DNA of 37,377 nt, from positions 1 to 37,377 of the forward strand of contig CASEEG010000099.1 in NCBI GenBank assembly GCA_949286885.1, written 5' to 3'. Origin of the DNA: an uncultured bacterium (GTDB lineage Bacteria > Cyanobacteriota > Vampirovibrionia > Gastranaerophilales > Gastranaerophilaceae). The notes below the pieces were generated by a model, which saw nothing but the letters and a program-made list of their open reading frames with translations, ran no database searches and was not told where the DNA came from. Both the position numbers and the translations under genes were made by a program. Every line of letters starts with the position of its first letter. The stretch's first letter is position 1. Shown piece by piece: positions 21,553 through 34,454 of the stretch.

Positions 21553-22023
21553 TTATTTTAAATTAGATATTAAATTAACCATTTCAATTGCAGATTTTGC
21601 AGCATCAGAGCCTTTATTGCCTGATTTTGTACCAGCACGCTCAATTGCTTGTTCAATATTATCTGTTGTCAGTATTCCGAAAATAACAGGCAGACCCTCT
21701 GATAAAGAAACAGAAGCAACACCTTTTGAAACTTCAGCGCAAACATAGTCATAATGACTGGTTGAACCCTTAATAACAGCACCAAGAGTAACAATTGCAC
21801 AATATTTTTTTGTTTGAGCCGCTTTTTTTGCCATCAAAGGAATTTCAAAAGCACCGGGAACCCAAAGAACATCAATATTATTTTCATTTACACCAAGACG
21901 CAAAAAAGAATCAAGTGCGCCAGATAAAAGCTTTGAGCTTATAAATTCATTAAACCTTGAAACAATAATACAAAACTTATCAGATGATGATGCGTATAAA
22001 TTACCTTCTATAATATTTGGCAT
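21553..22023 (-). CDS. ribH: 6,7-dimethyl-8-ribityllumazine synthase
   Basis: This enzyme joins 5-amino-6-ribitylamino-uracil with 3,4-dihydroxy-2-butanone phosphate in the penultimate step of riboflavin synthesis. The 156-aa protein matches E. coli RibE in length and has [15 protein letters not shown], the substrate-binding VPGAFEIPL, and [15 protein letters not shown] with catalytic His90. The end [12 protein letters not shown] is also typical. It is alone: no ribD, ribE or ribAB neighbour and no FMN-riboswitch-like leader. The Shine-Dalgarno AAGGGGAT has upstream complements (AATATCC with GGATATT), so leader structure may affect it. A strong minus-strand terminator stands about 60 nt upstream, so ribH is either attenuated by read-through or has a promoter within those 60 nt. 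Confidence 0.95.
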
Positions 22024-22081
22024 AAAATATCCCCTTAACCTTTACAAAAGGATATTAACACAAAAATATTTTTACATAAAG

Positions 22082-22108
22082 AAAAAGGCTTTTGATTTTC
22101 AAAAGCCT
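22082..22108 (-). terminator. Strong minus-strand terminator upstream of ribH
   Basis: AGGCTTTTGA and TCAAAAGCCT form a perfect 10-bp stem (22086-22095 with 22099-22108), loop of 3. On the minus strand it is followed by TTTTTCTTT. The plus strand has no U-tract. It therefore ends a transcript that begins in the gap to the right, about 60 nt before ribH. Confidence 0.75.
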
Positions 22109-22205
22109 CTCGGAATACTTGTTTAGTAATTCCTCGTGTGTGAAGTGAAGGTTAGTGTGTGTTGGTTAGAAAGTATATCTTTTATGTTTTGTTATATCTT
22201 GTTTA
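22082..22205 (-). ncRNA. Candidate small RNA or ribH leader RNA (about 120 nt)
   Basis: The minus strand between the repeated 21-nt element (22228-22208) and the terminator holds no ORF. It is made of a long G-poor, A/C-rich stretch with CCAACACACAC and ACUUCACACAC, then a bulged hairpin (22133-22112, GGAAU...AUUCC), then the terminator hairpin. This is the layout of an sRNA: an unpaired target-binding stretch, a stabilising hairpin and an intrinsic terminator. ACUUCACACAC differs at two of 11 positions from ACUCCUCACAC, the conserved unpaired motif of cyanobacterial Yfr1 as I recall it. That likeness is weak because the sequence is low in complexity. The 5' end is not determined. Confidence 0.45.
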
Positions 22206-22207
22206 TC

Positions 22208-22228
22208 GCTTACATATATATAAAGTAT
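22208..22228 (-). repeat. 21-nt element, copy 1 (upstream of candidate sRNA)
   Basis: On the minus strand this is A-TACTTTATATATATGTAAG-C. An identical 21-nt sequence occurs on the plus strand at 34230-34250, in front of the 58-aa gene. Both copies lie just upstream of a short transcription unit ending in a strong terminator, so a promoter or regulator site is likely. Confidence 0.5.
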
Positions 22229-22329
22229 TTCACTTTTAAAAAATTGCGCATTTTCGTTTTTTGTTTACAAAACTTAACAATATGTAAAAATTAGTACTAT
22301 TAGCGAGAGTTTTCTGTTTTGTTTTAATA

Positions 22330-22426: not shown

Positions 22427-22630
22427 ATACGTTGTATATCAGTTGTTGTTTTTCTCATACGGTAACACTTTTTAGCGAAACATAAATAATTCGCAAAAAA
22501 ATTCCTGTTGTATCTTATTAAATTTTATTCGCAAAAATTAAGCCAAAAAAGGCTCGGCGTGGCGTGCAAAACGCCAAACATTTTATTGTCAAAAATTATG
22601 GTTAGAAATATATTTTAGGAGATGTCTTTT
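22427..22630 (+). other. Long, structured 5' leader of the sigma-factor mRNA
   Basis: The predicted leader contains three hairpins: GCGAA/TTCGC (22475-22479 with 22490-22494), AGCC/GGCT (22541-22544 with 22551-22554), and TGGCGT/ACGCCA (22560-22565 with 22571-22576, after a tandem GGCGT). No ORF is seen. The rest of the 22024-22630 gap holds the sRNA candidate and operator-like repeats listed separately. Confidence 0.35.
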
Positions 22631-23530
22631 ATGAAAAATTCGCTTAACAACAAAAATTATTTTAACTTTGCACAAATTTCAAATTTTGATGAAAATCTTG
22701 CACAATATGTAAGGAAAATCTCTAAATACCCTATTTTAAGCACACAAGAAGAAAAAGAGCTTGCACGCAAAGTAGCAGAAGGAGACATTGAAGCAAAGAA
22801 AAAATTAATTCAATCTAACTTAAGGCTTGTTTTTAACGTGGCAAAAAAATCAATCCACACGACAACACTAAGCTTGTGTGATTTGATTCAAGAAGGAAAT
22901 ATGGGACTAATTGCAGCAGTAGATAAATTTAACTGGAAATTAGGCTATAAATTTTCCACTTATGCCACCTGGTGGATTAAACAAGCAATGTTTAAGGCAA
23001 TTTCAGAGCAATCTTATTCAATGAAAATTCCTGTCTACATTCAAGAAACTTTATCAAGATACAAAAAGGCAAAAACTAGCTTAGAACAAAAATATGGCTG
23101 TAGCGTAAAAGGCTCTCAAGTAGCAGAAAAAATCGGATACAGTGAAGAAAAAATTGACTTATTTTTAAACGCATTTAACAAAGCATTATCTATTGAAACC
23201 GGTTTTGAAGTTTTGAAAGACTCAAAAGGCACGCGCGAAATGAGTCTTGGCGAAATAATAGAAGACGAGAAACAAAATGTTGAAAAATATGTTCTTGATG
23301 AACAGCTAAAACATGACATTAATTGCGCACTGGAGTGTCTTAAAACAAGGGAAAAAGAAGTCCTTACAATGCGATTTGGACTAAATGAAAGCGCAAGAAA
23401 AACACTAGAGGAAATAGGCAACATTTACGGTGTTACAAAAGAGTGCATAAGGCAAATTGAAAAGCGTGCATTATCAAAAATACACTCCACCAAGGCTTGC
23501 AGGGAAATGCTCGTTAGTTACGTTATTTAA
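22631..23530 (+). CDS. Alternative RNA polymerase sigma factor, sigma-70 family (group 2/3 type)
   Basis: From ATG 22631 the protein has 299 aa. It lacks region 1.1 and holds region 1.2 (about 21-52), region 2 (56-125: DLIQEGNMGLIAAVDKF, FSTYATWWIKQAM), region 3 (135-215) and region 4 (228-290, helix-turn-helix LEEIGNIYGVTKECIRQIEK). Region 2.4 reads AISEQSYSMKIPVYIQE, where housekeeping RpoD has charged ADQARTIRIPVHM-type sequence, so -10 recognition may differ. The ATG at 22631 is preferred to 22622 because AGGAG ends 9 nt before it but directly abuts the earlier codon. The promoter region has operator-like repeats and a long leader, suggesting tight control. The gene overlaps the convergent bioC by 8 bp. 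The regulon cannot be named. Confidence 0.88.
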   Translation: MKNSLNNKNYFNFAQISNFDENLAQYVRKISKYPILSTQEEKELARKVAEGDIEAKKKLIQSNLRLVFNVAKKSIHTTTLSLCDLIQEGNMGLIAAVDKFNWKLGYKFSTYATWWIKQAMFKAISEQSYSMKIPVYIQETLSRYKKAKTSLEQKYGCSVKGSQVAEKIGYSEEKIDLFLNAFNKALSIETGFEVLKDSKGTREMSLGEIIEDEKQNVEKYVLDEQLKHDINCALECLKTREKEVLTMRFGLNESARKTLEEIGNIYGVTKECIRQIEKRALSKIHSTKACREMLVSYVI

Positions 23531-34154: not shown

Positions 34155-34184
34155 ATTTTAGCACAAACAAAAATTATTTGTAAA
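34155..34184 (-). promoter_or_regulatory. Promoter of the glucokinase-holA-holB-DUF3326-pseudopilin operon
   Basis: Minus strand: TTTACA (34184-34179), an 18-bp spacer, TAAAAT (34160-34155), with TG one base before the -10. The start is predicted near 34148, giving a leader of about 26 nt that carries the GGAGAGGA site. Confidence 0.5.
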
Positions 34185-34229
34185 GTATTGTAACATTATT
34201 TAAACAACTTGAAATTACATACTTTGTAT

Positions 34230-34250
34230 ATACTTTATATATATGTAAGC
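34230..34250 (+). repeat. 21-nt element, copy 2 (upstream of 58-aa gene)
   Basis: This copy is identical to the minus-strand sequence at 22228-22208. It is preceded by a partial tandem copy (ATACTTTGTAT at 34219-34229), so the ATACTTT unit repeats with an 11-bp period, one helical turn. It lies 27 nt upstream of the 58-aa gene's ATG. Confidence 0.5.
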
Positions 34251-34277
34251 ACTGAATAAGAGAAAGAAGATAGAGTT

Positions 34278-34454
34278 ATGATGACGGCAGTAAATGATTT
34301 AGACCAAAAATTGGCAGAAATATATTTTGAAAAAGTAACTGTTAATCTTGATGCAAAATCAACTCTTTCACCTAATGAGTTCTGGAGCTCAATGGAATTA
34401 ATAGCAACAAATAATAAAGCCGTTATGAATTTTCAAATGAAAAAAGGTGTATAG
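34278..34454 (+). CDS. Orphan small protein, 58 aa
   Basis: The ORF reads from ATG ATG at 34278-34283 to TAG at 34452-34454. The product starts MMTAVNDLDQKLAEIYFEKV and ends NFQMKKGV. It is soluble, mildly acidic at the start, with a single Trp (EFWSSMELIATNN) and no membrane helix or Cys. A purine-rich GAAGATAGAG lies before the start as ribosome site. It has all the parts of an independent gene: an upstream 21-nt promoter-like element, an ATG with a ribosome site and a strong terminator 25 nt after the stop. It may alternatively be a short regulatory RNA. I recognise no family. Confidence 0.55.
   Translation: MMTAVNDLDQKLAEIYFEKVTVNLDAKSTLSPNEFWSSMELIATNNKAVMNFQMKKGV

Follow-up and report, generated by a model that had tools for sequence, protein, structure and literature searches.

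The minus strand upstream of ribH in the 37,377-nt stretch of DNA analysed here (the window) carries what is best explained as the gene of a base-pairing small RNA, sRNA A, that would be controlled by RpaB and would have another small RNA, sRNA B, as its partner. We give this explanation a probability of about 0.6. The sequence features behind it are a promoter block, a terminator of its own, conservation throughout the family Gastranaerophilaceae, a placement that is independent of ribH, an HLR1 motif at a fixed position, and an RpaB ortholog encoded in the genome. That sRNA A is an independent small-RNA gene is, on comparative evidence, nearly certain. As judged from sequence, it represents a new family within a known kind of sRNA, limited to Gastranaerophilaceae and with an unexpected promoter link.

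The first-pass annotation had placed a candidate small RNA at 22082-22228 and had described a 10-bp minus-strand terminator with a U-run about 60 nt before ribH, a hairpin and a G-poor, A/C-rich stretch upstream of this terminator, and a repeated 21-nt element. All of these are present (Table 1), and the gap between the terminator and ribH is 58 nt. The interval itself was too short because the gene reaches further upstream, through the core promoter block to the HLR1-like site. The terminator is the strongest of four sites found in the stretch by the terminator scan, against 0.2 expected in shuffles, and has 13 pairs when G-U pairs are counted. The predicted fold of sRNA A has a z of -4.5, with equal stability in 0 of 200 shuffles, and this stability above the shuffles is mainly that of the terminator. 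In the partition function the C/A-rich CACACACUAACCUUC (22161-22147) has an unpaired probability of 0.99, and the ACACGAGGA element at 22139-22131 is complementary to sRNA B. The 5' part that follows the promoter block would be about 40 nt of A-rich RNA. The promoter block overlaps the 21-nt repeat, which is its -10/start block, and in most other genera it has the form CAATT..TTTAT..ATGTAAG. The two (G/T)TTACAWW direct repeats of the HLR1-like site are readable on the plus strand. A sigma-70-type gene (22622-23530) is in divergent orientation.

Table 1. Features of the sRNA A locus, the second promoter module in the window, and the sRNA B core
Feature	Position	Strand	Remarks
sRNA A, inferred transcript	22082..22207	-	about 125 nt, taking its 5' end from the promoter and its 3' end from the terminator
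HLR1-like (RpaB-type) site ATTGTTAAGTTTTGTAAA (transcript strand)	22264..22281	-	score 17/18
Core promoter block GCAATT...ACTTTATATATATGTAAG, -35-like and -10/start region	22209..22247	-	conserved in same-genus copies
21-nt element ATACTTTATATATATGTAAGC	22228-22208 and 34230-34250	- and +, respectively	two copies in window
G-poor unpaired region with invariant ACACTAACCT motif and ACACGAGGA element	22131..22180	-	24-sequence alignment; partition function
Hairpin GGAAUUAC-UAAACAA-GUAUUCC	22112..22133	-	present in nearly all aligned members
Intrinsic terminator AGGCTTTTGA-AAA-TCAAAAGCCT + T5	22108-22082	-	10 bp, U-tailed
TGTTAATAT, extended -10-like sequence, likely for ribH	22052..22060	-	consensus resemblance only
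ribH (6,7-dimethyl-8-ribityllumazine synthase), neighbour outside the element	21553..22023	-	Pfam PF00885, E 4.5e-58; start at 22023
Second HLR1 and promoter module	34177..34250	+	HLR1 18/18 at 34177-34194; 21-nt repeat 34230-34250
sRNA B core CTCTCTTAATATCCTCGTGTTT	G000:C70:298-319	-	L004, L164; similar promoter and terminator

Within the genus, 14 further genomes have this stretch with 88-98% identity, and in other genera the core of sRNA A turns up at unrelated loci. When named genomes were scanned with a sequence pattern, at least 112 stretches matched; the records that hold them are labelled Gastranaerophilales or Melainabacteria, are unclassified bins, or, in a few cases, are bins whose names are probably wrong. 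Among the carriers of sRNA A are records named Brachyspira, Heliobacteriaceae, and Fusobacterium CAG:439 (L035, L094, L095), which are probably misnamed Gastranaerophilales. The covariance model R1, which was built from 24 diverse copies of sRNA A, matches the window at 22082-22186 with 80.7 bits and an E of 5e-14, the window copy being part of the training set. R1 matches were obtained in 110 of 117 family genomes and in 39 of 41 genera, with 1-6 copies per genome, and in zero genomes outside Gastranaerophilaceae in class- and phylum-wide samples; searches of more than 40 genomes were run with stricter filters, by which weak matches may be lost. The first hairpin is nearly invariant in sequence across the aligned members and, because it hardly varies, the alignment gave no covariation in its support. 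The terminator, on the other hand, has a stem of at least 6 bp before the T-run in 120 of 128 unique members with 53 different stem sequences, and thus sequence change has left the helix intact. The Rfam search of the window gave no match for sRNA A, and in the literature searched there was no report of it or of any sRNA in gut or animal-associated Melainabacteria/Vampirovibrionia. The suggestion in the first-pass annotation of a trans-acting type of sRNA with an unpaired seed is supported by this comparative evidence and by an intrinsic terminator and a promoter, the latter recognised by sequence only, that go with sRNA A whatever its neighbours. Multi-copy anti-Shine-Dalgarno sRNAs of this general description are the csRNAs and LhrC, and sRNA A is likened to them by description only: it has several copies per genome, C-rich unpaired seeds, a strong terminator, and a regulator-linked promoter. 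Second-tier paralogs with similar promoters were also seen (L196-L207, L209), and three ACGAGGA-like copies are present in L197, L202, L206, and L207.

RpaB is a light/redox regulator of cyanobacteria. Its ortholog in this genome is at G000:C85:9227-9916 (NCBIfam NF045944, 365 bits, cut-off 330), and 43 of 48 relatives have one above the same cut-off. The RpaB site, HLR1, consists of two (G/T)TTACA(T/A)(T/A) repeats with 2-nt spacing, and in cyanobacteria a location ahead of the core promoter is in keeping with RpaB acting as an activator (PMC9241938, PMC6331805). Among 90 unique promoters of the family, 77 have a reverse-strand HLR1 motif 17-18 nt upstream of the -35-like CAATT and nine more have it at 7-8 nt, which is about one helical turn closer. 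An HLR1 score of at least 16/18 was found in 82 of the 90 as compared to 1.6% of base-shuffled upstream regions; HLR1 is AT-rich, and since the promoters are related by descent they are not 90 independent observations. When 800 kb of the relative G020 was scanned for the module of HLR1, spacing, and -10, it was found at the sRNA A gene and at two unconvincing places. Taken together, it is probable that RpaB controls the sRNA A promoter. As in the HLR1/RpaB-regulated genes of cyanobacteria, there are two (G/T)TTACAWW repeats, 2 nt apart, upstream of a core promoter and an RpaB ortholog is encoded, but the target here would be the gene of an sRNA, in gut bacteria that do not photosynthesise, and the site is a putative one. 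Homologs of RpaA, RpaB, and NblS have been reported in Melainabacteria, which are without photosynthesis, and the paper that named this group left the role of these proteins open (PMC3787301). With an RpaB-type site fixed before a family-wide sRNA this question is now directly testable, and the link points to where the RpaB regulon may be sought.

The second HLR1 and promoter module in the window lies upstream of a 58-aa ORF (34278-34454, plus strand) that has a terminator, is without a Pfam match, and precedes a class II (threonyl-type) tRNA synthetase gene; 34177-34454 (+) is listed here as a candidate RpaB target. The same HLR1 and promoter occur a third time at G000:C109:6583-6629(-) (L002, L208), in a short transcript unit that has a C-rich CTTCCTAACCTTCCCTTCC and a terminator and is upstream of an apparent tRNA-Leu gene.

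The partner, sRNA B, was located through a weak match of the sRNA A promoter within the same genome (contig C70). It has an sRNA A-like promoter, a variable 5' part, then the ultraconserved UACUCUCUCUUAAUAUCCUCGUGUUUAUUUAAUG, and a terminator. HLR1-like sites at its promoters are weak and weakly enriched. Nearly all of the family genomes that were searched have an exact match to the 22-nt core, mostly as a single copy; outside the family the exact core was not found and there were two matches with three mismatches. By these features sRNA B is an undescribed family-wide sRNA. In about ten genera, sRNA A has in its 5' part a AUUAAAUAAACACGAG to which the CUCGUGUUUAUUUAAU of sRNA B is perfectly complementary. 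Perfect complementarity of 15-16 nt, which is beyond chance as the longest run in 9,600 shuffles was 13, is found in about half (50 of 96) of the unique copies of sRNA A, and at least one copy of ACGAG, and up to three, is present in 93 of the 96 as compared to 10% of shuffles. In 800 kb of G020, sRNA A is the longest complement of sRNA B, B itself aside, and sRNA B is the longest complement of sRNA A. The predicted gain on forming the A-B dimer is -16 to -20 kcal/mol in four genera with the 5' site and in three of them it is beyond all 30 shuffles. In the window's own genus the complementarity is down to 9 nt and the gain of -8.8 kcal/mol is inside the shuffled range (mean -7.1, minimum -11.2). 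The UUUAUUUAAU part of sRNA B is altered where sRNA A is without the 5' site, as in the window's genus, G016, G035, G040, and G042, and is unaltered where sRNA A has it, a pattern that carries no correction for phylogeny; in some genera sRNA A is without the 5' site and yet sRNA B is unchanged. Pairing of A with B in the family is, from these comparisons, rather likely. In the window's genus pairing is uncertain and the 9-nt contact may be weak. In G040 the genes for A and B are arranged tail to tail with about 130 bp between them, and one sheep-gut bin has them in tandem at a distance of about 330 bp. In L134 (1164-1185 and 1493) the B core directly follows the 3' end of an ORF and is without the usual promoter, and a copy of A is in tandem with it, about 330 bp downstream.

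We propose that RpaB would bind to HLR1 and switch the sRNA A promoter, the position of the site upstream of the -35-like block being compatible with activation as in cyanobacteria. The unpaired C-rich stretch of sRNA A would cover Shine-Dalgarno regions, its ACACGAG elements would pair with the complementary UCCUCGUGU(UUAUUUAAU) of sRNA B, and the two sRNAs would titrate each other. This resembles the sRNA sponges and anti-sRNAs, in which one sRNA has repeated sites complementary to another, although titration in the case of A and B is a prediction. A wider and more tentative proposal, to which we give somewhat less than an even chance, is that the ancestral cyanobacterial NblS/RpaB system runs a lineage-specific riboregulatory circuit in Gastranaerophilaceae in which RpaB-driven sRNAs (A, its paralogs, and perhaps B) share SD- and anti-SD-like elements and titrate one another. 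If true, RpaB would have a function that predates or has outlived photosynthesis.

A different explanation for the position of sRNA A, given as an alternative in the first-pass annotation, is that it acts in cis on ribH, as a leader or attenuator. It does lie about 58 nt before ribH, in the same orientation, at each of the 12 same-genus loci that have sufficient flank, but when the upstream regions were compared among relatives this association with ribH, or with riboflavin genes, was confined to the window's genus. In other genera the genes that sRNA A precedes or adjoins, in either orientation, include glnA, gyrB, hpt, and a gene for a GH38 mannosidase (glnA and GH38 were named through Pfam and the rest were read from protein starts). 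Of all 104 loci, 56 have their next ORF on the strand of sRNA A and 48 have it on the other strand. Between the terminator and ribH there is also the extended -10-like block TGTTAATAT, which is found with small changes in most same-genus genomes. Because of the varied neighbours and this separate promoter-like block for ribH, sRNA A is therefore not regarded as a ribH leader, and such a role is highly improbable. Neither the FMN model nor any other riboswitch model of Rfam gave a match upstream of ribH in the window. Two tandem copies of sRNA A upstream of the glutamine synthetase gene, on the same strand, were seen repeatedly (L032, L062, L063, L067, L105, L114, L116, L124) and may hint at nitrogen control. 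It is also very improbable that sRNA A sequesters CsrA through GAGGA as a CsrA motif that is repeated up to three times. The window's genus has CsrA and the GGA elements, with up to three ACGAG copies, are there, but CsrA does not accompany sRNA A throughout, many sRNA A-bearing genomes that are 98-99% complete being without it (G015, G016, G020, G021, G023, G024, G026-G028), and the GGA is at the base of a stem and not in a loop. That sRNA A is a short mRNA for a small peptide, with GAGG as a possible Shine-Dalgarno sequence, has hardly any likelihood, given that the alignment has no conserved start codon and has 2- and 4-nt indels inside the most conserved block.

The likeness to Yfr1 that had been noted is correct in that ACTTCACACAC (22146-22136) agrees with the Yfr1 ACUCCUCACAC at 9 of 11 positions, and an unpaired C-rich stretch ahead of a terminator would also fit a divergent Yfr1. 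However, the corresponding sequence in most other genera is TCTACACACAC or close to it, and there is no conservation of the 11-mer across the family. The Rfam model of Yfr1 (RF01116) had no match in the window at E<=10 and none in 58 relatives, whereas the Synechococcus elongatus control was positive. Yfr1 is 54-69 nt long and has two stem-loops that flank the unpaired motif (PMC2190773), while sRNA A has an inferred length of about 125 nt and no 5' stem-loop, its hairpin and terminator both being 3' of the unpaired region, and it is often multi-copy and restricted to one family. Descent from Yfr1 is thus extremely improbable. The likeness that is left is to the Yfr1/Yfr2 pair, which are widely conserved sRNAs that have nearly complementary motifs and are able to pair with each other (PMC6778093). 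Here too there are two conserved sRNAs with complementary motifs, an unpaired C-rich motif, and a terminator, and the UCCUC core is common to sRNA B and Yfr1. By analogy, sRNA A may work like the Yfr1/Yfr2 pair, and A and B would then be a second, apparently independent, case of a conserved mutually complementary sRNA pair in the cyanobacterial phylum.

An explanation that we consider unlikely, but far less so than the rivals above, is that sRNA A is a conserved sRNA that acts on mRNAs only, that its match to sRNA B is vestigial or has some other role, and that the HLR1-like site belongs to another OmpR-type regulator or is an AT-rich upstream element. The weak A-B pairing in the window's genus, the drift of sRNA B in several genera, and the two other full-length OmpR-type regulators encoded in the genome would be in keeping with this. 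Against it are the exact 15-16-nt matches between A and B in about ten genera, the standing of A and B as each other's longest complement in 800 kb of G020, and the HLR1 direct repeats, which fit the published consensus (PMC9241938) at a fixed position.

Pairing with mRNAs was examined at 743 gene starts of G020, where neither A nor B gave an excess over its shuffled versions: A paired with fewer gene starts than its shuffles and B with about as many, and the best pairing energies of A were unexceptional as compared to those of shuffled A. The two best hits were compared across relatives. Of these, rnhB was rejected as a target as its pairing is not conserved. For the other, a sprA-like gene that may be a target, conservation extends to only about four genera; the pairing is strong in G020, moderate in G015, G023, and G024, and weak in the window's genus. 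A candidate mRNA target is the gene at G020:C11:545910 (L277), in which TAGGTAGTGTAA, with 12 nt complementary to sRNA A, is just upstream of the Shine-Dalgarno sequence.
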